Source of the DNA: Bacteroidales bacterium
Lineage (GTDB): Bacteria > Bacteroidota > Bacteroidia > Bacteroidales > F082
Length of the DNA stretch: 48,359 nucleotides
Direction of reading: 5' to 3'
Assembly (NCBI GenBank): GCA_015493525.1
Contig: WGCY01000021.1
Location: 1-48,359, forward strand
Shown: piece by piece, positions 34,982-47,393 of the stretch
How positions within the stretch are numbered: position 1 is the first letter of the stretch
Layout of the letters: every line of letters begins with the position of its first letter
The notes under the pieces: generated by a model
What the model saw: only the letters and a program-made list of their open reading frames with translations
What the model was told of the DNA's origin: nothing
The model's database searches: none
Translations under genes and position numbers: made by a program

Positions 34982-35881
34982 TTATGCTTTCCGGGTTATT
35001 TTCAAGGCTTTTCTTAACTTATAGGCTCTCGTACCAAACAACCGGTGGAGAATCAATGAAAAAATTTGCATCCCTTTTGCCGTGCCTGCTGCAAAACGGC
35101 CTCTGTTTTTCCTGAAATAGTAATACTTACTTTTTTCCCAAAAAGCCCATTTTTCATAGTTAAGTTCCCCATCTTTTAACATGGAAGGACCTTCAAGGTG
35201 AATGATTTTTACATCCGGTAAAATATAAGAATCATACCCCATTCTGCTCAACCGGTAAAACAGATCTGTTTCTTCGTAATAGAGAAAAAACCGTTCATCA
35301 AATCCCCCTACCCTTTGAAAAGCTGCTTTCCGGATAAAAATATCAGCACCCGTAATATACGGTACACAAAAAGGTCGGGTTTCTTTCTTGCATGTCTTTC
35401 CCAAACACAGGTATTTATCATAATATTGCGGGTAAAAGCGGCGAAACCCTATATCGCTCCATTCCTGCAAAAGGGAAGGGAAATTCCCGTAAGAGGTAGT
35501 TAACTCACCGTTTTCTTTGATCAGGTTTCCTCCGCAACTCACCACTTCCAGGGAAGCTTTTTCCAGAAAATCATAAAAGCGGATAACCGCATTATTTGTC
35601 AGGATGGCATCTGGATTGAGAAAGAACAGATATTTTCCGGCAGCCTGTTGCACACCGATGTTATTGGCCGCACCAAAGCCTTTGTTTTCCGTATTTTCTA
35701 TGCACTTTACCCGGGGATATTTTTCTTTAATAAAACGGACCGATTCGGGTGCAGAGGCATTGTCCACCACTATTATCTCACAGGTGGGTTCCGAAACAAA
35801 TTTGTCAATGGAATCAATACAGCGGCCAAGGGTTTGCTGGCTGTTGTAATTGACAATGATGATGGAGACTTGGGGATTCAA
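34982..35881 (-). CDS. GT2 family glycosyltransferase, rhamnosyltransferase-like (WbbL type)
   Basis: The 299-residue protein shows VSIIIVNYNSQQTLGRCIDSI, VVDNASAP, the N-K-GFGAANNIG segment, FLNPDAIL (DxD-like), and GGFDERFFLYYEETDLFYRLSRMGY, a pattern strongly typical of dTDP-rhamnosyltransferases related to WbbL. The start codon is TTG, giving MNPQVSIIIVNYN. No rml genes are in the window, so the donor is not proven. Upstream lies a repeat-rich gap with two REP-like elements and a DUF559 gene. Confidence 0.87.
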   Translation of the reverse strand: MNPQVSIIIVNYNSQQTLGRCIDSIDKFVSEPTCEIIVVDNASAPESVRFIKEKYPRVKCIENTENKGFGAANNIGVQQAAGKYLFFLNPDAILTNNAVIRFYDFLEKASLEVVSCGGNLIKENGELTTSYGNFPSLLQEWSDIGFRRFYPQYYDKYLCLGKTCKKETRPFCVPYITGADIFIRKAAFQRVGGFDERFFLYYEETDLFYRLSRMGYDSYILPDVKIIHLEGPSMLKDGELNYEKWAFWEKSKYYYFRKNRGRFAAGTAKGMQIFSLILHRLFGTRAYKLRKALKITRKA

Positions 35882-35943
35882 AAAAATATTGTTACGTCAG
35901 TTGTGTAATACAAAAAGTTTAGCTGGTCTGTTAGCGGGGAAAT

Positions 35944-36027
35944 TTCCTCCCCCTGCACCTTCACGCCAGAGGCGGACAGGCAGCCAGAGGGGGATAAGGT
36001 TCCACCCCCTACCCCCGCCAGCGGGGG
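35944..36027 (-). repeat. Two REP-like hairpin + G-rich elements
   Basis: Read on the minus strand, a perfect 7-bp stem (CCCCCGC / GCGGGGG, 36012-36027) is followed by TAGGGGGTGGAA. Next comes a second unit with a small stem (CGCC / GGCG, 35964-35974) followed by a tail ending GTGCAGGGGGAGG. The stem plus (G)TAGGGG(G)TGG tail is the same design as the ends of the DUF559 element at 43131-43594. Confidence 0.6.
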
Positions 36028-36092
36028 ACATTCTTACTCGCCAATTATTTACGCAAAAGAAAAACTTATGCCCCAAAGGGACATTCATATCC

Positions 36093-36120
36093 TCTCGCCT
36101 TAGGCGAGACGGGGGGTGCG
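36093..36120 (+). repeat. REP-like element at the 3' side of the DUF559 gene
   Basis: A 7-bp stem (TCTCGCC / GGCGAGA, 36093-36109) is followed by CGGGGGGTGCG. Its orientation is opposite to the element at 36586-36618 on the other side of the gene, so the gene lies between inverted copies. Confidence 0.5.
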
Positions 36121-36149
36121 ATAGCCTCACGGGAAGGAAGGGATGGAAT

Positions 36150-36554
36150 TTACTTTCCATTGTTTTTTAGTTCATATTCTTCGACATAAGCACCCAGGGC
36201 CCTTTCCACATTGCGTATATCATTCAACACTTCATCATCATTAAAACGAAGTACCGTAAAACCAATTTCTTCCAGTAATTTTTGCCTGATTTCATCCTTT
36301 TTAACTACTCCTTCATTCAAGTGGGTAATTCCGTCAACTTCTATGATAAGCATTAGCCCTGGACACATGAAATCGGCAATGTAACTCAGAACAGGTCTTT
36401 GTCGCCTGAATTTATAGCCATGTAGTTGACCTGCCCTTAAAACATACTTCCACAGACAGGCTTCTGCTTTGGTCATATTATGCCTTAACTCATTGGCATA
36501 ATGTCGTAAATTTTTGTTATAATGATAGTTGTTGGATTTAGAGGCTGGTTGCAT
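36150..36554 (-). CDS. DUF559 / Vsr-like endonuclease-domain protein (copy 1, intact)
   Basis: The 134-residue protein has the DUF559 pattern: an N-terminal helix pair (ANELRHNMTKAEACLWKYVLR), then GYKFRRQRPVLSYIADFMCPGLMLIIEVDG with acidic residues Asp61, Glu72 and Asp74 in a PD-(D/E)xK-like arrangement, and VLRFNDDEVL. Family members are thought to be nuclease-fold proteins but their role is not established. The ATG at 36554 is chosen; the frame is open to 36641, but that part is the flanking repeat. Hairpin + G-rich elements flank the gene in inverted orientation. It interrupts the glycosyltransferase/flippase gene order. Confidence 0.8.
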   Translation of the reverse strand: MQPASKSNNYHYNKNLRHYANELRHNMTKAEACLWKYVLRAGQLHGYKFRRQRPVLSYIADFMCPGLMLIIEVDGITHLNEGVVKKDEIRQKLLEEIGFTVLRFNDDEVLNDIRNVERALGAYVEEYELKNNGK

Positions 36555-36585
36555 GGAAAGATTAGTAAAATTAGAATGTTTGATT

Positions 36586-36618
36586 TTCCACCCCCTGCAC
36601 CCCCGAAGTAAATTCGGG
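36586..36618 (-). repeat. REP-like element between the DUF559 gene and wzx
   Basis: On the minus strand a 6-bp stem (CCCGAA / TTCGGG, loop of 5 nt, 36602-36618) is followed by a tail ending GGGGGTGCAGGGGGTGGAA. Further G/C-rich words (CCAAAAGGGG, GGGGGAGGTTGGGGGC) continue to 36673, into the 3' end of the wzx reading frame. Confidence 0.55.
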
Positions 36619-36646
36619 ACAGGCTCTCCAAAAGGGGACAATACCG

Positions 36647-38098
36647 TTAATAATCTGGGGGAGGTTGGGGGCTTTTAAAAGCAAACGAAACCAGCGACTT
36701 AAGCAATGGTTCCCTAAAAAGAAATAGCTGTACAACAAAATAAAGAACAGATGAAATCAGCACGGCAACAAAAAGCCCTAAAAACAGTGGCGCATTTATC
36801 CCCCGAAACCATAGTGCCACAGGTATAAAAAGCAGCGAAGCCACAAAAGCCTTTACCGCCAGTAACCATTTCAGCCTGATTTTCATTTTTCGGCCTGCAA
36901 AATAATAAGCCACGAATGATACAGCCGCTTCTGCGGCAAGCAGGGCCAAAGCGGCACCTTTGTCTTTAAACATCCTTATTAGGATCAGGTTAAACACCAG
37001 GCTGGTTCCCATTCCCACGACAGTGGCCCACAGATATTGTTTTTCAAAGCCTCCGGGAATCAGCAGTTGCATGCCGAAAAGATGTCCCAGCCCCACAAGA
37101 AAAATGACCGGTGAAAGAAGCCGCAAAGTGAGTACGGCACCAGCAAATTGGGACCCGGAGAAAGCAAGCATAATTTCCGGGGCAAAAATAAAGAGCCCCA
37201 CCGACACAGGGATACCAAACAGACAAATATAAGCAAAAGATTGCGAAACCTGTTTATCGAGGGAAACAGTGTTTTTTATATCAATGTTTTTAGTTATTCC
37301 CGGAATCAGCACAGTACCAAGAGAAGTAATCAACGGAATAATAACCAGTGTCAGTTTTTTTGCAGCTGTATAATAACCCACTGCCTTGTCGTTTGTCATA
37401 AACCCCAGCAACAAAACATCACCGAGTGTATAGACGCTGATTGTCAGTGACGAAACAAAGAGCGTAAAAAGCCCCCTAAAATGGTTTTTAAGTTGCAGAT
37501 GATGAAATCCCAGGCTTACCTGCCCTTTCAGGCGGATTAAATTCCAGGCATTATTGGCAAGAATTGAGAAAATGGTAATCAGAAAATAGACCATCAAGTC
37601 CTGCCGTATCCTAACAAAAAGGAAAAGTGCAATCAATGCAAGGGTTTTAATCACGATTGAACGCAATGAAAGAAAGCGAAACTCTTCCATGCCCATGTAA
37701 AACCAGTCGAGCACCGAAAAACCCGACAACACAAGCAGCCCTCCGATAAGATAATAATTCAGGGAGGCATGAAACCAGCCTACTGACAATATAACCACCA
37801 GATAGATTACCAGCAGCAACAGTGAACTGATAAAATGAATCAAGACAAGCCCGGAGAATAATTTGCTCAGCTTTTGTTTGTTCCCTTTTGCTTTAGCCAC
37901 TTCACGCATGCCATAAACAGGAATCCCCACCTGGGCAAACATCACAAAATAGGTGGCAAAAGCAACCACAAACTGTACTTTCCCTATGCCTTCCGGACCA
38001 AGAATACGGGAAGCATAAGAAAAACTTACAATGGGAAAAAACAGATTGCTCAAAAGGAGCAGCCCGTTATAAAAGAAATTCTTTTTAACTAAAGTCAA
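36647..38098 (-). CDS. wzx: Wzx-type polysaccharide flippase (MOP superfamily)
   Basis: The 483-residue protein has 12 or more transmembrane helices and begins VKKNFFYNGLLLLSNLFFPIVSFSYASRILGPEGIGKVQFV, the pattern of Wzx/RfbX flippases, which move lipid-linked repeat units across the inner membrane. The start is TTG (TTG-ACT-TTA). The last residues (KSPQPPPDY) are encoded by G/C-rich repeat sequence, suggesting the original C-terminus was replaced when the DUF559 unit arrived. A perfect long hairpin sits 15 bp upstream of the start. WecA-like and exosortase genes lie upstream on the same strand. Confidence 0.88.
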   Translation of the reverse strand: MTLVKKNFFYNGLLLLSNLFFPIVSFSYASRILGPEGIGKVQFVVAFATYFVMFAQVGIPVYGMREVAKAKGNKQKLSKLFSGLVLIHFISSLLLLVIYLVVILSVGWFHASLNYYLIGGLLVLSGFSVLDWFYMGMEEFRFLSLRSIVIKTLALIALFLFVRIRQDLMVYFLITIFSILANNAWNLIRLKGQVSLGFHHLQLKNHFRGLFTLFVSSLTISVYTLGDVLLLGFMTNDKAVGYYTAAKKLTLVIIPLITSLGTVLIPGITKNIDIKNTVSLDKQVSQSFAYICLFGIPVSVGLFIFAPEIMLAFSGSQFAGAVLTLRLLSPVIFLVGLGHLFGMQLLIPGGFEKQYLWATVVGMGTSLVFNLILIRMFKDKGAALALLAAEAAVSFVAYYFAGRKMKIRLKWLLAVKAFVASLLFIPVALWFRGINAPLFLGLFVAVLISSVLYFVVQLFLFREPLLKSLVSFAFKSPQPPPDY

Positions 38099-38113
38099 AG
38101 AAAAGATGTTTAT

Positions 38114-38170
38114 TAACCTGAGTTCGAGATAAGACTTACATACGGAAAGTCTTATCTCGAACTCAGGTTA
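38114..38170. repeat. Perfect 24-bp inverted repeat in the wzx leader
   Basis: Two 24-nt arms (38114-38137 and 38147-38170) are exactly complementary around a 9-nt loop. The structure has no T-run. It lies in the 145-bp gap between the WecA-like gene and wzx, its 3' arm ending 15 bp before the wzx start. It could be a MITE-like relic, or an RNA hairpin affecting wzx expression. Confidence 0.85.
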
Positions 38171-38243
38171 TTAGATTCTCACGGCACGCCAACCCATATG
38201 GCCTGCCTGAAAGTGCCTCAGAATTAAACGGAAGGAGTAAAAA

Positions 38244-39377
38244 TTATTCTGCATCAGCGACAAAGCCATTCTTGCCAACTTTGTTTTTTCCACGCCGCTT
38301 TCTCAGCTGATAATAAGGGATAAACGTAAGGACCATGGCTGAAACAAATAATATCGTTGTCAACCGCAAAATGCCCATGTTCCTCAATAAAAAAGAGGCA
38401 ACGATAAAAACCAGGTTTGTAACGAGAAGTATTATGGTTGATATCCGATGGCTTCCCGTAAGTTCAAGCACGTAATGATGCACATGACGTTTGTCCGGTT
38501 TAAACGGAGAAGTTCCCCTGGCCATCCGTATAGCCATAACACGTATGGTATCGAAGATGGGAATCACGAGAATACCAATGGAGACAGCCGGCGCGGCATG
38601 AATTATATACCTACTGTTTACAGCATCTGCCAGATTCAGCTCATTAAATTTAATGGCAAAAATTGACAAAATAAATCCCACCAGCAGGGAGCCGATATCC
38701 CCCATGAATATTTTATATTTCTTAGAAAAGAAATTGAACCTGAAAAAGGCCAATAATGCACCCACAAGTGCTGTGGAAAGAATGGCAAGTTGCAGCTTAC
38801 CTGCCAGAAAAAACCAAATACCAAAAGCAAGGGAAGCCAGAATTCCTACCCCGGAAGAGAGTCCATCAATACCATCAATCAGGTTAAATGCATTGACTAT
38901 GGCCACAATGACAAACAAGCTGAGAATATCGCTGGAGGCAGTATTCAAAACACCAATGCTCATAAAACCGTGCAAATCGGAAATACGAACCCCGCCCAAA
39001 TCAATAATGATGCCTGCTGCAATGATTTGCCCAATAAATTTTTTCAATGGGCTCAACCCTGTGATATCATCTTTTAACCCGACAAAAAAGATAACTAGGC
39101 TTCCCGCTATAATATATTGAATATAAGGTATCTTTGCAATATTCACAAAAACCATAGAGGCTATTATAAATCCTGCGAAAATGGCAATACCTCCCAGTGT
39201 GGGAGTAATATTTTCGTGTGAAGTCCTCCCGTTGGGCACATCATAAAGATTCTTGGCACGGGCAACTTCTATCAATGGGGGAATGGAAATATACGTTATC
39301 ATAAATGCCAGGAGGAAAGTCCCCCAAAAGACAAAATGTTCGTTTAACAAAAGAATTCCCATAGAGTACTGTTTCAT
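38244..39377 (-). CDS. WecA/MraY-family undecaprenyl-phosphate sugar-1-phosphate transferase
   Basis: The 377-residue polytopic enzyme has the family acid motifs: Asp103-Asp104 in GLKDDITGLSP, NLIDGIDGL (165-173), FMGDIGSLLVGF (224-235) and the cytoplasmic HVHH segment in KPDKRHVHHYVLELTG. It would transfer GlcNAc-1-phosphate or a related sugar to undecaprenyl phosphate. The ATG at 39377 (MKQYSMGILLL) is preferred over an in-frame ATG at 39431. It is one of three different initiating transferases in the locus. The exosortase gene lies directly upstream on the same strand. Confidence 0.92.
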   Translation of the reverse strand: MKQYSMGILLLNEHFVFWGTFLLAFMITYISIPPLIEVARAKNLYDVPNGRTSHENITPTLGGIAIFAGFIIASMVFVNIAKIPYIQYIIAGSLVIFFVGLKDDITGLSPLKKFIGQIIAAGIIIDLGGVRISDLHGFMSIGVLNTASSDILSLFVIVAIVNAFNLIDGIDGLSSGVGILASLAFGIWFFLAGKLQLAILSTALVGALLAFFRFNFFSKKYKIFMGDIGSLLVGFILSIFAIKFNELNLADAVNSRYIIHAAPAVSIGILVIPIFDTIRVMAIRMARGTSPFKPDKRHVHHYVLELTGSHRISTIILLVTNLVFIVASFLLRNMGILRLTTILFVSAMVLTFIPYYQLRKRRGKNKVGKNGFVADAE

Positions 39378-39469
39378 ACTATTGTATTGCAAAGGTAGAC
39401 GAAAAGAAGCAAATAACAAGACAACAGCCAATTATATTTACCCCTTTTCACAGGCCGTTTCGGACAAAA

Positions 39470-40033
39470 TTATTTTTCTATCTCACGGGAGGGGTTTCTG
39501 AATTTCTCCACCCACCATACCCAAAGGCCAAACATGACCACGTAAAAGAAAGGACGAAAAATATAGCTGTGTGCAAAATGCCAATGTTGGGGAAGATAAA
39601 TCATAGTGGCAGCAAGGCCTACAATGCGAAAGACATTTATAATATGGACAATCACCAGCCCCATTGGAATAAACCAGATTTTGTGTTTCCACGGTCCCGG
39701 GAAAACAGTCATTAACACAATCCACTCCATAGATTGTTTCAGGCTGCTGCAACTGGGATGCATCAACAAATGTCCGTTTTTAACAGCGATAACCCTGCCA
39801 TGGACAGCAAAATCAAGGTTTGTCAAATGTTTCAACGCCCAGACACTATGCCGGATTAAGGCTTTTACCATAAATTCATATGTTGCACCGATAATATCCT
39901 GAAAAGGGACAAAATGCAAATGGTTGGCCCAATACCTGAAGAAAAAATGGAACCCGAGTATCAATACGGCAAACAGGACAATATCCCTAAACGGCTGGTA
40001 ACGCCTGTCCCGCAATAACTGTTCTGCTTTCAT
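39470..40033 (-). CDS. Exosortase/archaeosortase family transpeptidase, copy 2
   Basis: The 187-residue polytopic membrane protein is a paralogue of copy 1. The three family residues are Cys95 in MHPSCSSLKQ, Arg136 in HIINVFRI and His155 in WHFAHSYIFRPFFY. Shared blocks include FPGPWKxKxWxIPxGL before Arg and RPFFYVVxF after His. It is 15 bp downstream of an outer-membrane barrel gene and 92 bp upstream of the WecA-like gene, so co-transcription is likely. The CSSL variant of the usual CSGL around the nucleophile is a difference worth noting. Target protein unknown. Confidence 0.85.
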   Translation of the reverse strand: MKAEQLLRDRRYQPFRDIVLFAVLILGFHFFFRYWANHLHFVPFQDIIGATYEFMVKALIRHSVWALKHLTNLDFAVHGRVIAVKNGHLLMHPSCSSLKQSMEWIVLMTVFPGPWKHKIWFIPMGLVIVHIINVFRIVGLAATMIYLPQHWHFAHSYIFRPFFYVVMFGLWVWWVEKFRNPSREIEK

Positions 40034-40048
40034 AATTTTAACTGTTTT

Positions 40049-41740
40049 TTAAAACCCGATATTTGTCCCAATGGTAACCGTATTTGTCTTTCCCCAATAG
40101 TATTGGGGAGAGTATTTTTTTATGTATGCCGCATCTCCCGTGATATCTGAATAACGGTATTTAAAAAAGACATACGTATTGGCGACAATCTCATACCGTG
40201 CTGAAAACAACACCATCGCATTTTGCCATTTCAGGTTTTTAAACACCGGTACTTTATGCATGTAACATCTGGGATGTTGGGTTTCACATTCCGCATAGCT
40301 GTAGTCATCGTAATGCCTCGCCAGAGTATACGAAAGTGAAAAGTGAAGCCCCCTGATGGGCTTATACTGCAAAGCAACATAATATTCTTTGGAATTGTCC
40401 TTCAGGTAATGTCCCATATTATAAAGGTCGCTGGTATAATCCTGCGTGGCAATCCGGTGTTGGTAAACAAACGGCTTGGTCAAAGTAAATTCCGCTGTCA
40501 GTGCTACATTTTGAAGCGGGAAGTTACTTACCCGTAGCCCCCCTTTATAACCTAACAGGTTAAACTCATCTTTTGCTTTCACATGGCTGAAGCTAAAATC
40601 ATCGAAAAACATATCAAAATAGAGATGGAGATGCTTTATGTTTCTTGAGCTAATGGCAAAATACATTTGGGAATTTTGCCCCGTTTGCAGCCCGCTCGTT
40701 CTGTTATTTAATGTATGATCAACTGATTTATAAAAAAGGAACGGGATCAGGTAAGCCGGATGGACACCAATATCGGTATAAATGATAGAATTCCCAAAAG
40801 AAAGGTTTAAGTGGCGTATGGGATAAAAGGTAAACATACTGGCGGCCATGTATTTGGGATGGAAGACCGTACGATAAGTCCCATCAATCCAATAGGAACG
40901 GCTGCTGTCCACTATGGCCGAAACCAGCCAGGCATGGTAATAGTTAAACTCAAACCATCTGACCGGTTTTAATTGTAGTTTGATCATGGCAGAAGAAGGG
41001 GCACGGCCCGACCGGATGTCCGTTCCATTGTACCCTACGCCCCATTCAACATCATCTTTAACAATCCCCACCGTTCCCCATTTCCAGGAATACATCAACC
41101 CGCCCCGCGCATCGCTGTATTGAATGCCGTTAACTTCCCCGCCATTCTTATAAGGAACCCCGGGAGTTTGCACAAAATATTCCGGTGTAACCATGACGCG
41201 GTTTAAATCATTGTCGCGCACGCTGGTGTAAAAAGAAAAATGTTTCCCGATGTAGCCAAACAGGGAAAAGAAACCCCAGGTGTGCTTCAACCCGCCGTTT
41301 TCGTTGGTGCTGTACGACATTCCCAATATGGGCTGTATTGCCAAAGTAAAAGTAGAATCTTTATAAAAAAAACCGGGGGGATTGAGTGCCAACGCCGTTG
41401 TCTGTCTTTTGTTCAAAAACAGCCGGTGTTTTTCTATCTTTGCCCGGGGACTGCTGCTTTCTAAAAAGTATGCCTGTAAATAAAAGTTCAGCTCTTTTTC
41501 TTGTCGCTTATTTAAGGCAATTTTATTTGCAGCAACCTCATTTTTAACCTCTCGCAACTTATTATAAATCATCTTCCGGCTATAAGGCTTGATAACATCG
41601 TTAAGTTCGATATACTTTTGGTTAGCCATTTCATCCAAAAAATCATAAATATTTGTGTTGGAGATATGCTCGTACACAACCTGTGCCGGAACCACAAAAG
41701 GTATTGCCGCAAAAAGTAAAAACCAGTATATTTTTTTCAT
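40049..41740 (-). CDS. Outer-membrane beta-barrel protein, Wzi/RemB-like, copy 2
   Basis: The 563-residue protein has a signal peptide (MKKIYWFLLFAAIPFVVPAQ), an N-terminal region YDFLDEMANQKYIELNDVIKPYSRKMI, a short helical linker, then a barrel region with alternating strands ending GTNIGF. The middle part (DDVEWGVGYNGTDIRSGRAPSSAMIKLQLKPVRWFEFNYYHAWLVS) resembles Wzi capsule-assembly proteins. It is similar in layout to the barrel encoded next to exosortase copy 1. Predicted in the outer membrane, perhaps as the surface acceptor or anchor for the polysaccharide or sorted protein. Confidence 0.75.
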   Translation of the reverse strand: MKKIYWFLLFAAIPFVVPAQVVYEHISNTNIYDFLDEMANQKYIELNDVIKPYSRKMIYNKLREVKNEVAANKIALNKRQEKELNFYLQAYFLESSSPRAKIEKHRLFLNKRQTTALALNPPGFFYKDSTFTLAIQPILGMSYSTNENGGLKHTWGFFSLFGYIGKHFSFYTSVRDNDLNRVMVTPEYFVQTPGVPYKNGGEVNGIQYSDARGGLMYSWKWGTVGIVKDDVEWGVGYNGTDIRSGRAPSSAMIKLQLKPVRWFEFNYYHAWLVSAIVDSSRSYWIDGTYRTVFHPKYMAASMFTFYPIRHLNLSFGNSIIYTDIGVHPAYLIPFLFYKSVDHTLNNRTSGLQTGQNSQMYFAISSRNIKHLHLYFDMFFDDFSFSHVKAKDEFNLLGYKGGLRVSNFPLQNVALTAEFTLTKPFVYQHRIATQDYTSDLYNMGHYLKDNSKEYYVALQYKPIRGLHFSLSYTLARHYDDYSYAECETQHPRCYMHKVPVFKNLKWQNAMVLFSARYEIVANTYVFFKYRYSDITGDAAYIKKYSPQYYWGKTNTVTIGTNIGF

Positions 41741-41792
41741 TTGATGCAGAATTAATCAAAAACCGCAAATTATTATTTATTTGGCAAAGAAA

Positions 41793-42959
41793 TCAACGGC
41801 TTCTGACACGTCTAATCAGGATATTGTAAAGTGCTTTAAAGAAATATGAAACATCTGTCCGGAAAGGGTGCTTTTCATAAGCTTCCAGATAACGCATTTC
41901 CGAAGCCATAATTTCTTCCAGTGTTTTTGGCATATCGGCATAAAACGGAGGGACCAGTCCGTGTTTGTGTTTAATTCTCTTCTGTTTCAGTTCTTCAGAA
42001 TAGAGATTAAAATAATGATCGCTCAATGGCCTGACACCCACCAACTTAAGGTCCCCCTTGAGAAGATTAAAAATCATGGGAAATTCGTCAATCCAAAACT
42101 TCCTGAAAAAACGGCCTTCCGTTGTAACCCGGAAATCATCTTTAAATTTCCCGCCATCCCGTAAATTGTTGTGCTCATAAACATACTCCTGTAAGTATTC
42201 GGAATAAGCATACATGGTCCTCAACTTGTAAACAGTAAAAATTTTGCCATCCTTTCCCCTACGTTTCAACCGGACAAGAGGGCCATAAGTAGGCCGGTCA
42301 TCAAAAGCGGGTTCTTTTGTTTTTTTGGCCACAAAAAACAGTTCATTTGCTATGGTTTTCTCATCCACAATCTTAAAACCACACGAATACAGCCGGCCAA
42401 AAGTTTCGGATTTGGAAAGTACCCTGTACCTCTTTTTGTCTAATTTATAATAGATATTTTTCAGAACAGGCAGTTTGGGCATAACCCGCGTGTAAAGCAC
42501 ATCGAAAAAATAATAAATCCTGTTGAAAGGGAAAAAGAATCTTTTCAGTATGCGTTTTTTCCGATTTGTGTAAACCTCCACACTGCCGATAAAAGTTCCG
42601 CCCAAAGGCAACTTATCATTGACAGCCTCAAAAAATTTATTAATCCGCCGGAAATCATTAACTTTTCTCAGGTTTACAATGGCAGAGAATTTCCCGTAAG
42701 GTAATTTGAGGATATTAAAACGGGTGGACGTTTCGGCAAGGAAAGTATGGGGAGATGACAGGTCAATATACTTCTCAAAATATTTCCTGGGCCCTGCTCC
42801 CTTTTCTTCATCTACTATGCCTGTGAGTTCGTCAGCAGATAATACCGGTTCTTTTTTCCATACATCGCTTTCTTCATGGGAAATAGCTTTACTTTTCTTC
42901 CTTTCGGAAGACTTACCGGCAAAAAGCTGATTTTTTATTGCAACTGCCAATGGCCCCAT
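41793..42959 (-). CDS. Two-domain phosphoglycosyl transferase with an N-terminal methyltransferase-like region
   Basis: The 388-residue protein ends in a bacterial sugar-transferase domain (about 220-388): VRLKRRGKDGKIFTVYKLRTM, catalytic Asp291-Glu292 in WIDEFPMIFNLLKGD, and KLVGVRPLS, where most relatives have GPRP. The usual N-terminal membrane hairpin is not directly in front. Instead residues 80-213 (NLRKVNDFRRINKFFEAVNDKLPLGGTFIG ... FGRLYSCGFKIVDE) resemble the C-terminal half of a SAM-dependent methyltransferase fold without the SAM-binding GxGxG. Residues 141-162 are aromatic and hydrophobic and could bind the membrane. It lies upstream of the barrel and exosortase genes and probably belongs to that module. 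Confidence 0.75.
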   Translation of the reverse strand: MGPLAVAIKNQLFAGKSSERKKSKAISHEESDVWKKEPVLSADELTGIVDEEKGAGPRKYFEKYIDLSSPHTFLAETSTRFNILKLPYGKFSAIVNLRKVNDFRRINKFFEAVNDKLPLGGTFIGSVEVYTNRKKRILKRFFFPFNRIYYFFDVLYTRVMPKLPVLKNIYYKLDKKRYRVLSKSETFGRLYSCGFKIVDEKTIANELFFVAKKTKEPAFDDRPTYGPLVRLKRRGKDGKIFTVYKLRTMYAYSEYLQEYVYEHNNLRDGGKFKDDFRVTTEGRFFRKFWIDEFPMIFNLLKGDLKLVGVRPLSDHYFNLYSEELKQKRIKHKHGLVPPFYADMPKTLEEIMASEMRYLEAYEKHPFRTDVSYFFKALYNILIRRVRSR

Positions 42960-42973
42960 GAATTAAATTTTGA

Positions 42974-42981
42974 CAAAAATA
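42974..42981 (-). promoter_or_regulatory. Candidate -7 promoter element (TATTTTTG) for the two-domain transferase gene
   Basis: A perfect TAnnTTTG match ends 15 bp before the ATG. No clear -33 element was seen. It could drive the transferase, barrel, exosortase and WecA-like genes. Confidence 0.35.
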
Positions 42982-43130
42982 ATAAAATTCCGGGTTTGGG
43001 TTCATTTTGCCTGCTTCTCAGGCAAAATATTATTTTGAGGTGCTGGCCATAAAATTCTTAATATTTTCTTTTCGGGCAAAACTGTATTTTTAAATTTGAA
43101 AACAGGGAGATGTATTATTTCCGGAACGAA

Positions 43131-43594
43131 TTCCCCTCCTTTGGAGGGGCGTAGGGGTGGGTTTCATAAATTTTCACCATGTTCCAATATCCAATATTCA
43201 ATGGTCCTCAACACATTGGCCATATCTCTTTTCACCTCCCGGTCATCAAACCTTAAAAAACGGACCCCCATATTTTCCAATCGTTTTTGCCGTTGCTCAT
43301 CATTGACCATTACTTCTTCAAAATCATGGCTCATTCCGTCAACTTCTATGGCCAACATTAAACTTTTACAGTAGAAATCAACAATGTAATTGTCAATAGG
43401 ACGCTGACGGTCAAAATCATATCCCAACATTTTTTCTGCTTCAATTCATTCCAGAGTAGAACTTCCGAAAAGGTCATATCATTTCGTAAAGCCTTGGCCA
43501 GGGATTTTAGTTTGGAGTTATAAGGCAGTATCTTGCGTTTCATTTTTTTGTTTGTAATAACTAACCCACCCCTACGCCCCTCCAAGGAGGGGAA
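43131..43594 (-). mobile_element. DUF559 unit with 32-33 bp terminal inverted repeats
   Basis: The left end (43131-43163) and the right end (43563-43594) are the same sequence in opposite orientation apart from one base in a loop. Each end contains a hairpin (CCCCTCC / GGAGGGG) followed by CGTAGGGGTGGGTT pointing inward. The stop codon of the DUF559 frame touches the left repeat. The whole unit is about 464 bp. It separates the two-domain transferase gene from the FemAB-like gene. Confidence 0.7.
43164..43543 (-). pseudogene. DUF559 endonuclease-domain gene with a frameshift at a poly-A run (copy 2)
   Basis: Two overlapping frames together give a complete DUF559 protein of about 126 residues. 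The first starts at ATG 43543 (MKRKILPYNSKLKSLAKALRN...) and reads ELKQKK; the second continues MLGYDFDRQRP, IVDFYCKS, LAIEVDGMSH and FLRFDDREV. The break is at six A residues (minus strand, 43435-43430); seven would restore a single frame. This may be an inactivating mutation, a sequencing error, or a site of transcriptional slippage. Motif residues of the nuclease fold are intact. Terminal inverted repeats flank the gene. Confidence 0.75.
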
Positions 43595-43670
43595 TAACAG
43601 CATTGTTAGAAGATTCCGGATAAAATTAGAAAAGTTTGAATAGAAAACCAACTTTATGCTTCTCATTTTT

Positions 43671-44663
43671 CTATTTTAAAAAAAGGATCTTTAAGCCGGC
43701 TTCTCCAATTTTATAAAGAAGGGGGTTCAAAACACACAGGAATTTCCCGTACTCAACCTGTTTGCCCCCAAAACGTGATTTGAATTCCCTGACCCCATAA
43801 GGTTTTTCAGGGCTTCCTGCGCCCATAAAATCAAGATAGGTTATATTATTTTGTGTTGCGTATTCCATGGCCGCCCATGTAGCCATGACACTTGGATGCT
43901 GGTTTTTGTATTGATAATCGAGGCCGCAAACATAAAATTCATACATTGCTTTTCCGGGATAAATGAGGGACAGGATGCCCCCGATGACTTTGCCTTCATA
44001 ATAGACCAATAAATACTTCCCGGCCTGTTGCTTGTATAATGCAGTAAAAAAACTTTTCGGAAACAACGGTTTTTTTACTTTTCGGCTGTACAAATCACGG
44101 AGTATCTCGTAAAATTCCTCAATATCCCGGACGTTTTCTGCCTCTCTCCAAACAGCACCGTTTTTTAGGGCATGCCTTATCTGCCGTCTTCGCGAACTGC
44201 CCATATTTTTCTTCAGCTGTAGCTCATCGGTAGTATCCAGATGAAAATTCAACCAGGGAATATAGTTGAATTTATTCCGTACAAAAAGATCTTTGTAATT
44301 CCCGTAATCAAAATAATTTCTTATTTCGAGATAGATGAGCCGCTTCCGGTAAAAGCCGGTAATATAATTCAGGAGGCTTTCAACGGACCGGTTATCCACT
44401 TTATCCGGCAGGACAATGCCCCCGTATATGATGCCCCGCCGGGAGAAAAAAGATTTTACGCCTTCTTCTTTCTGCCGGGTTACAACGACAAGGGTATTGT
44501 ATTCGCCCCCCTTGTAACAGGCAAACACATTGGCAGCCAATCCGGGAACAGCATTAAAAAGATCGAAGAACTGCCGGGTTTGAAAAGGAGAGCTGAAACG
44601 GCTCTTTCTTAAAAGCCGGTCCCAGAGGCCTGTATTTACTTTATCGTTTAGGTGGATTATCAT
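43671..44663 (-). CDS. FemAB-like / GNAT-fold protein, copy 2
   Basis: The 330-residue protein shows the FemAB-type double-GNAT pattern seen in exosortase-associated loci: SSPFQTRQFFDLFNAVPGL, LKKNMGSSRRRQIRHALKNGAVWREAENVRDIEEFYEIL, YEGKVIGGILSLIYPGKAMYEFYVCGLDYQYKNQHPSVMATWAAMEYA and YLDFMGAGSPEKPYGVREFKSRFGG. It probably transfers an acyl or aminoacyl group onto an envelope acceptor. ATG 44663 (MIIHLNDKV) is preferred to the in-frame ATG at 44687. The CACAGTG repeat array begins about 25 bp upstream of that start. It parallels the FemAB-like gene beside exosortase copy 1. Confidence 0.8.
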   Translation of the reverse strand: MIIHLNDKVNTGLWDRLLRKSRFSSPFQTRQFFDLFNAVPGLAANVFACYKGGEYNTLVVVTRQKEEGVKSFFSRRGIIYGGIVLPDKVDNRSVESLLNYITGFYRKRLIYLEIRNYFDYGNYKDLFVRNKFNYIPWLNFHLDTTDELQLKKNMGSSRRRQIRHALKNGAVWREAENVRDIEEFYEILRDLYSRKVKKPLFPKSFFTALYKQQAGKYLLVYYEGKVIGGILSLIYPGKAMYEFYVCGLDYQYKNQHPSVMATWAAMEYATQNNITYLDFMGAGSPEKPYGVREFKSRFGGKQVEYGKFLCVLNPLLYKIGEAGLKILFLK

Positions 44664-44689: not shown

Positions 44690-44885
44690 GTCACAGAGTA
44701 ACACAGTGAGAATTTTTTTGGATCACAGTGGAACACAGTGAAACTTTTTTGGGCACAGAGTATCACGGTGAGAACCTTTCACAGAGTACCACAGTGAAAC
44801 TTCTTTTTTGGTCACGGAGGAGCACAGTGGTGATTTTCACAGTGGGACACAGTGAAATTATTACTCTGTGCGCCCCTGTGATCTC
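44690..44885. repeat. CACAGTG-word repeat array 1
   Basis: About 200 bp of short units of the form GTCACAG(A/T)G-n-A-n-CACAGTGAAACTTTTTTGG, several of them, ending in the opposite orientation with ACTCTGTGCGCCCCTGTGA. That same terminal block closes array 2. No gene is seen in it. Similar CTCTGTG/CACAGAG words are scattered in intergenic DNA of many bacteria. Confidence 0.8.
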
Positions 44886-44902
44886 TTTTTTGTCTTCATC
44901 GG

Positions 44903-44941
44903 CTTCTGACTTCTGGCTTCCGTCTCCCGACTTCTAACTCC
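44903..44941. repeat. GACTTCTG/GGCTTCCG-word repeat
   Basis: A short run of words CTTCTGACTTCTGGCTTCC and TCTCCCGACTTCTAACTCC directly follows CACAGTG array 1 and ends 8 bp before the stop codon of the membrane protein gene. Confidence 0.55.
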
Positions 44942-46320: not shown

Positions 46321-46594
46321 GGGGCACAGTGGGCCTCAGTGAAATTTCTTTTTGGTCACAGTGGAACACAGTGAAACTTCTTTTTGGGTCACAGAGGAGC
46401 ACAGTGGTGATTTTCATTGTATTTGTTTTTGGACACAGTGGGCCTCAGTGAAACTTTTTTGGTCACAGAGTACCACGGTGGTGATTTTCACTGTGTCCCT
46501 CTGTGATCTCTTTTTGGCCACAGTGTATCACAGTGATGAATTTTCACTGTGTCCCACTGTGAAATTCTTACTCTGTGCGCCCCTGTGACCACAC
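46321..46594. repeat. CACAGTG-word repeat array 2
   Basis: About 270 bp of the same units as array 1, both orientations present. For example TCACAGAG-n-CAC-n-GTG at 46462-46478 can pair with CACTGTGTCCCTCTGTGA just downstream, giving large hairpins. It ends with the same ACTCTGTGCGCCCCTGTGA block. This fills the 303-bp gap between the membrane protein gene and the AbiEii gene. An open frame through it on the plus strand is low-complexity and not a gene. Confidence 0.8.
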
Positions 46595-46607: not shown

Positions 46608-47393
46608 TTATTCTAATCCCTGAAAAAACTCCCCAATCCTTAAAACCCGTTTACTGTTTTCTTTGTTGAAAAGTAAATGTTCAAAGTCCCTGGTTTTCTT
46701 TACCAGGTCAACCGTTTTTAGCATACGCTCCACCGTGTTTTTCAATTCCTGCAGATTGTGAATACCTGTTTTTGCAGAAAGAAATTCATAATCCGGTTTT
46801 GATTGGAACAAAAGAAACATCACATCATAAAAATCCCGTCCTTTTTGCCTGTTAAGCATGGCCGAAATTTTCATGGAGCACAACGTTTCAGCCGAAGGAA
46901 CCGGAAAGGGGAAAAAGTATCCGCAACCTTTTATATTGGCAATTGTACGTTTATATTCTATTCGCTGATCTTCATTTTCAATTTTTATCAGAAAACGTTC
47001 TTCCCTATGCCCGCTTAATCCCAGTTCGAATAAAAATTCGGGAAAATAGAGACTTCTCCGGAACGCTTTTAATTTGGTGTTTTTTCTGTCTTTTGTTATT
47101 ATTTTGTATCCGTTTCGCTTCAAAAAGGTAATGACCTCATCCGTCATCTTCACAAATTCCTCATACGAAAACGCTTTGCAACCAAAATCCAGGTCTTCCG
47201 AGAACCGGTCAATGCCTTTTACCAAACGAAGGTTTGTTCCCCCGATAAAGGTAAGATTTTTGACAAAACGGGTAGAGGAGATATAATCCAATAGTTGCAA
47301 CTGGATATACTCTTTCAACATGAATTTGTAAAAAACAGGATTATCCTGAATTTGATAGGAAAAAAAGGATTTGATTTGGTTAATTTGTACCAT
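46608..47393 (-). CDS. AbiEii-type nucleotidyltransferase toxin
   Basis: The 261-residue protein has the minimal nucleotidyltransferase core of AbiEii/AbiGii toxins (type IV toxin-antitoxin, DUF1814): FIGGTNLRLV (Gly51-Gly52, with Thr instead of the commoner Ser) and FSEDLDFGCK (Asp67, Asp69). MKISAMLNRQKGRDFYDVMFLL carries the conserved Lys and Asp of the C-terminal part. Related toxins modify tRNA 3' ends and can abort phage infection. The ATG follows directly on the TAG stop of the antitoxin gene (TAGATG), so translation should be coupled. Confidence 0.9.
   Translation of the reverse strand: MVQINQIKSFFSYQIQDNPVFYKFMLKEYIQLQLLDYISSTRFVKNLTFIGGTNLRLVKGIDRFSEDLDFGCKAFSYEEFVKMTDEVITFLKRNGYKIITKDRKNTKLKAFRRSLYFPEFLFELGLSGHREERFLIKIENEDQRIEYKRTIANIKGCGYFFPFPVPSAETLCSMKISAMLNRQKGRDFYDVMFLLFQSKPDYEFLSAKTGIHNLQELKNTVERMLKTVDLVKKTRDFEHLLFNKENSKRVLRIGEFFQGLE

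Follow-up and report, generated by a model that had tools for sequence, protein, structure and literature searches.

The DNA analyzed here, referred to as the window, is a stretch of 48,359 nucleotides from a Bacteroidales genome (G000). Two genes of the DUF559 family were found in it, together with palindromic sequences, as follows:

43133..43161, plus strand: hairpin and G-rich tail unit, tail towards the gene (inverted-repeat search, fold, pattern)
43565..43592, minus strand: second, inverted hairpin and tail unit, tail towards the gene (inverted-repeat search, fold, pattern)
43164..43543 (N-terminal end approximate), minus strand: DUF559 (Vsr-like nuclease) gene, in two frames (ORFs, domain matches)
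36150..36554, minus strand: second DUF559 gene, frame open throughout, of another DUF559 clade (L001) (domain match, ORF, tree)
36002..36027, minus strand: hairpin and G-rich tail unit downstream of the second DUF559 gene (unit detector)
36590..36636, no strand: weak palindromic/G-rich stretch upstream of the second DUF559 gene (unit detector)

The inverted arms of the first locus (43134-43163 and 43563-43592) are 30 nt long each, 90% complementary and separated by 399 nt. The top inverted-repeat score in the region 42901-43800 was 23, while among 60 dinucleotide shuffles the mean was 10.6 and the highest score 14: the inverted repeat that a sequence-only reading had described around the DUF559 gene is real. 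Both arms fold, as that reading had also proposed, into a hairpin of 7 or 6 bp followed by an unpaired G-rich tail that faces the gene; compared with its own shuffles the fold was clearly better for the first arm alone (z -2.2), the z value of the second being -1.0.

The gene between the arms matched DUF559 with 74 bits and one internal stop. In NCBIfam it matched PRK09767 with an E value of 2e-10, yet with 41 bits against a cut-off of 218. A DUF559 gene does lie inside the repeats, but it is not intact: the C-terminal part is an ORF at 43164-43430 and the N-terminal part, starting near 43543, is in another frame, and the gene is therefore probably dead.

The strict repeat pattern occurs in the window genome solely at the two ends of the 43131-43594 unit, and one extra place was found when 3 mismatches to the 27-base pattern were allowed. 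The repeat, supposed by the earlier reading to belong to a mobile system, has thus nearly no further copies in its own genome, but it is present in relatives. An empty site was sought for the window copy; within the genus, the neighbouring gene lacks a close ortholog. A scan of window positions 35500-44500 yielded no Rfam family at the gathering threshold, and a known RNA family was rejected. Elsewhere in the window, the intergenic stretches 44728-44937 and 46352-46588 have similar translations (VEHSET...STTVVIFTV), perhaps another repeat, and the ORF at 46608-47393 resembles an AbiEii-type nucleotidyltransferase.

Units were searched for with a detector that required a stem of at least 6 bases ending in GGG, a loop of up to 20 and a second GGG within 18 nt; it overlooks looser palindromes, chance matches arise in GC-rich genomes and a palindrome may count in two registers (e.g. 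in L361). Over the whole window the detector returned four units, two per DUF559 gene and one of the four weak, those at the second gene being of a different type from those at 43131-43594. In general, the stem of a unit is GC-rich and its 3' arm ends in a G-run; a second G-run follows after a short linker. The GTAG noted earlier beside the hairpin is indeed part of the tail, but it is not a constant tag: the linkers of 348 unique units include TT, CT, A, CC, TTA, CTA, ATTTA, TGTA, CGTA and more, and GTAG was rejected as the defining feature. The parallel drawn from it with REPs fails as well, since the REPs described in a part of PMC2817692 carry a GT(A/G)G head 5' of the palindrome, whereas here a variable linker follows 3' of the stem.

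Among 58 adjacent unit pairs separated by 5-130 nt, 29 were outward-pointing doublets, and 13 of these 29 combined different linker types, against 3.4 expected. Of 27 two-sided stand-alone cases with room, 15 had inward-pointing tails; of 23 two-sided in-frame cases (see below), 15 had tails that pointed outward. At one locus (L136) a composite palindrome unit occurs in two direct copies, one on each side of the gene.

The DUF559 family (PF04480) was present in 53 of 100 genomes, namely G000 and 99 relatives. From a fetched subset of their loci, 61 stand-alone genes were retained (non-identical domain matches with E <1e-20 in ORFs <400 aa, a few of them broken). The stand-alone protein of L135 is one that is intact. 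A unit, defined by a relaxed motif of hairpin and second G-run, lay within 350 bp of 51 of these 61 genes, which excludes that the flanks of the window gene are a local coincidence. When the surroundings were divided into 100-bp bins, units were found in the adjacent bins at 17/61 and 31/60 genes, and beyond 500 bp at 0-2 of 50-56 per bin; with the strict motif, units almost exclusively adjoined the DUF559 gene. Similarly, a unit lay within 350 bp at 54 of 80 loci from a second scan (the named loci, see below), with 41/80 and 36/79 in the adjacent bins and 26/2553 in the far bins. No unit was found by the detector at 10 of the 61 stand-alone and 26 of the 80 named loci. The palindromes are associated with DUF559 genes; whether such genes are always flanked had been raised by the earlier reading, and they often are, at plasmid loci too (13/17, see below), but not always.

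As control, the 30 best Y1_Tnp/RAYT loci were taken from a search of 22 of these genomes, of which 21 gave a match; 20 of the loci had full flanks. Twenty-seven had no such units and three had different palindromes. RAYT was rejected as the mobilizer, and the earlier suggestion of a system distinct from RAYT is borne out.

The repeat class of the window, CCCCTCC..GGAGGGG..GGGGTGGG, was found in 16 of the 100 genomes and was absent from 84; strict copies numbered 115 in G010, 27 in G034, 15 in G044 and 2 in G000, and the reversed-pattern control gave 0 in all 100 genomes. A DUF559 match occurred in 13 of the 16 genomes with this class and in 40 of the 84 others (Fisher p 0.012). For the 49 genes having both a unit and a genome label, tail similarity rose with protein identity (Mantel r 0.33, p 0.0005, with no correction for relatedness). 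Tails were shared by 42% of 36 different-genus pairs with proteins at least 60% identical and by 3% of 817 such pairs below 45%; same-genome pairs with proteins less than 60% identical shared them in 0/21 cases. Within the genus (12 genomes), six genomes had a C5/G5 repeat; the matching DUF559 clade occurred in 5/6 of these and 0/6 others (Fisher p 0.0076); its reversed-pattern control gave 2 matches in G003 and 0 in the other 11 genomes. The window's class, also found in 6 of 12, had its matching clade in 5/6 versus 0/6 (Fisher p 0.0076), two of the five genes (L002 and L149) being broken and placed by BLAST. The type of repeat is tied more closely to the DUF559 clade than to the genome.

These data bear on the possibility that the palindromes spread by other means, through another enzyme or recombination, and that DUF559 genes merely land in them. 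Such passengers would account for the three genomes of the 16 (G005, G047 and G056) in which the window's class occurs without a DUF559 match, and for G010, where 115 strict copies accompany one DUF559 gene. We regard this explanation as improbable, since repeat types go with DUF559 clades across genera and, within one genome, differ from clade to clade, 27 of 30 Y1 transposase loci lack units, and a similar architecture exists at DUF559 genes in three other phyla (see below).

The many copies accompanied by a single gene in G010 and the linkage of repeat type to nuclease clade are also what would be expected if DUF559 acted in a RAYT-like transposition, excising and inserting hairpin units, with the DUF559 copies as autonomous and the doublets as non-autonomous (REPIN-like) elements. 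The presence of units at both ends and the frequency of outward doublets, often asymmetric, agree with this. It is possible but unlikely: the same LeuRS and RecG positions are repeatedly occupied in many genera, as described below, which looks like homing, and Vsr-like nucleases are not known as transposases.

The second scan used an alignment derived from copies found in leucyl-tRNA synthetase (LeuRS) and gave at least 567 confirmed relatives, of which the best 80 were kept. In 67 of these 80 the DUF559 domain was in frame with an ORF of more than 230 aa (stop to stop), with palindromes predicted to be translated; this share is biased upwards because the 80 are the best relatives of a LeuRS-derived alignment. 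In the family search of the 100 genomes, most strong matches were in short ORFs. Host clusters were defined by BLAST, LeuRS being named by motifs and the others by NCBIfam on representatives. The in-frame hosts were LeuRS (27), MetH (9), RecG (8), IleRS/ValRS (7), IcmF (5), IspF (2), RecJ (2) and, once each, IspG, guanylate kinase, a DEXH helicase, acetate-CoA ligase, MetRS, HsdR and an aminotransferase. Loci collected earlier added HsdR (L116), a methylase-like ORF (L033, weak matches) and an acetyltransferase (L117). The domain lies on the N-terminal side in IspF and guanylate kinase and on the C-terminal side in IspG and L117. In one record titled as a Limnohabitans MAG (L290), a recG with the insert groups with Flavobacteriaceae; the contig is probably mis-binned.

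In LeuRS, the insertion site (site 1) is located between the motifs GRSEGA and VFTTRPDT in several relatives, and the palindromes there read through as part of the predicted protein. The LeuRS genes were followed up in 51 of 247 genomes of the order, picked by eye from E-values with a weak score, and in seven known genomes; smaller inserts would be missed, and therefore no frequency is claimed. The LeuRS query matched in 51 of these 58 genomes. Fifty had a single match each, so the occupied gene looks like the only LeuRS copy. One isolate with the insert is Daejeonella sp. H1SJ63, whose LeuRS ORF has 1092 aa. Occupied host proteins are presumably made full length and functional.

A second position in LeuRS (site 2), before KMSKS, holds a diverged DUF559-like domain with no EIDG motif and no obvious palindromes (L078, L082, L085, L110, L221, L235 and L237), which looks like a domesticated relic. 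In the genus of the window it is found in G003 (L221) and is absent from G002, G004 and G006. One LeuRS ORF (L077) has both a site-1 DUF559 and the diverged site-2 domain, and two site-1 copies (L096 and L101) show a decayed catalytic motif and no obvious palindromes.

Hairpins are common near gene ends, and the units could be terminators or mRNA stabilizers beside an ordinary host nuclease for Vsr-type repair or defence. A Caulobacter DUF559 protein was proposed as a Vsr-like repair enzyme in one part of PMC12907096. This explanation is highly improbable, since it leaves unexplained the in-frame copies with translated palindromes in LeuRS, RecG, MetH and others, as well as the patchiness and the clade-linked tails.

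Comparison of alleles within genera showed different states of the same site. For LeuRS, G025 and G050 of one genus (g15) hold DUF559 and G038 has palindromes only; in a second (g9), G032 is full, G044 is occupied but cut by the contig end, and G019 has palindromes only; in a third (g2), G027 and G051 are full and G012 has an internal deletion that kept the palindromes on both sides and a C-terminal scrap. For RecG (genus g242), G548 is occupied and G405, G370, G523 and G496 are empty at the same place. Occupation of RecG is rare: among the rows listed, which covered 243 of the 295 class genomes with a match, 4 ORFs were longer than 820 aa, and one of the four was examined. For stand-alone copies, neither an empty site nor a target duplication could be defined. 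Presence is patchy, repeat-only and deleted alleles occur, and the in-frame copies reside in open frames.

On a LeuRS host tree of 116 rows with both flanks readable, explaining the state 'full', held by 28 rows, takes 17 changes, of which starred branches force no fewer than 13; contrasting full with empty alone takes 15. Three rows were scored 'degen', of which L288 and L293 failed the motif filter yet look intact. The DUF559 tree, from which partial domains and identical rows were excluded, is weakly resolved (147 rows, 113 columns); both trees are of the 'quick' type. On the DUF559 tree LeuRS residence needs 10 changes (3 forced), MetH 4 (2 forced) and IcmF 3 (all forced), and RecG forms one clade. 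A switch of host gene is seen where the LeuRS copy L253 is sister to the IcmF copy L283 (SH-aLRT 98). Identities of host and insert were correlated over 27 LeuRS copies (r 0.44); given this correlation and the single RecG clade, the pattern is partly one of inheritance.

Searches by tblastn identified 36 plasmid and 2 phage records with DUF559 relatives, all of them distant (<60% identity), and carriage of the Bacteroidota clade on plasmids or phages was rejected. From the 36 records we chose 17 plasmid loci, which include near relatives (several Azospirillum, two Picosynechococcus and two Synechocystis). A near unit was found in 13 of the 17. These loci and one phage locus, which had no unit, gave 50 units in 12.6 kb near the gene versus 8 in 41.4 kb far from it, overlapping registers being counted. 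On plasmid pAQ6 of Picosynechococcus PCC 7002, the DUF559 gene occupies 21.0-21.4 kb, and 13 of the 17 strict units have their start in the surrounding 19.5-24.1 kb. Together, these loci show a similar architecture at DUF559 genes in three other phyla.

Some plasmid loci had further peculiarities. On a Pseudanabaena galeata plasmid (L367), the DUF559 domain is part of a CDS annotated as far longer, so that Cyanobacteria too may have in-frame copies. Two Deinococcus plasmids (L373 and L374) have the gene at different positions of the same hpa gene cluster, and in Sphingomonas parapaucimobilis (L372) it lies within a transhydrogenase operon, with no unit detected.

The DUF559 domains of 42 proteins share 12 invariant columns, including E62, D64, H68 and D77, which may correspond to the active-site motif of the EDxHD family; the putative catalytic residues are conserved. 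Profile searches with DUF559 matched 3hrl (E 5e-32) and 3r3p (E 1.7e-6). A structure model (pLDDT 92.7) matched in Foldseek 3hrl (E 4e-8), the catalytic domain of I-Bth0305I (E 9e-5) and, only at E 0.09, Vsr; the domain is predicted to adopt a Vsr-like fold related to I-Bth0305I. The latter enzyme is described in parts of the review PMC3943268 and of PMC9403480 and in PDB titles, and the intein section of PMC9403480 places a DUF559 gene of Thermosynechococcus TA-1 among the EDxHD homing endonucleases.

The arrangement resembles several known systems in part. As in REP/RAYT systems and REPINs, a small nuclease gene is located between inverted palindromes, dispersed copies and doublets exist, and the repeat type is tied to the enzyme clade, but the enzyme is DUF559/Vsr-like and not a Y1 tyrosine transposase, and DUF559 repeats are also translated within genes. 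With EDxHD homing endonucleases such as I-Bth0305I it shares the sequence and fold of the catalytic domain and the insertion in conserved genes. Unlike them, it has palindromic repeats at the edges and stand-alone intergenic copies, and an NCBIfam scan of 18 host ORFs, none of them LeuRS, gave no intein family among the matches listed (in one table, the best 25 of 89). The palindromic elements of Rickettsia are in-frame palindromes within protein genes (PMC3733652, in part), and three of the LeuRS alleles, repeat-only or deleted, look alike; that one account, in the part consulted, mentions no enzyme gene, while the palindromes here flank a nuclease gene. As in pairs of MITEs and insertion sequences, a full copy coexists with short derivatives that keep the ends, such as the deleted LeuRS allele L229, but neither a known transposase gene nor a defined target duplication is involved.

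On balance, we think that the window feature is probably a decayed mobile element, a DUF559 nuclease of homing type bounded by palindromes and acting with no splicing. The nuclease would cut an unoccupied target, which could be an allele lacking the element or a lone palindrome of the nuclease's own type, and repair would then use an occupied template to copy the element in. The palindromes may serve as recognition site, as homology for ectopic jumps, or both, and their movement would depend on the DUF559 enzyme. Homing-type copying would account for the repeated occupation of one site, the loss and regain, the conserved residues and the full, deleted and empty alleles; same-type palindromes at the edges would account for the jumps to new genes and the dispersed remnants. 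Copies without a gene would persist as dispersed palindromes or outward-pointing doublets, although asymmetric outward doublets would also fit transposon-like ends. Because stop codons are few in GC-rich palindromes, essential proteins could retain in-frame copies as insertions that are translated, with no splicing.

It seems to us somewhat more plausible than its contrary that these elements form a new class of selfish elements, Vsr-type cassettes bounded by palindromes, which jump from one host gene to another, unrelated one, shed non-autonomous palindromes and occur in at least four phyla; being translated as tolerated loops of essential proteins, they would need no splicing. In the literature searched, with bioRxiv and most subscription journals outside its scope, we found no description of a system of DUF559 and palindromes, nor DUF559 together with 'inverted repeat'. 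If this reading is true, DUF559 becomes a candidate for the enzyme behind palindromic repeats of a class that showed no association with RAYT genes here. Homing-type nucleases would then have, besides introns and inteins, another route into essential genes, and in-frame domain insertions, among them the decayed nuclease-like domains in LeuRS, would have a direct source. Occupied genes were also found in named strains, recG of Flavobacterium difficile KDG-16 and metH of Marivirga aurantiaca S37H4, which make the system testable.
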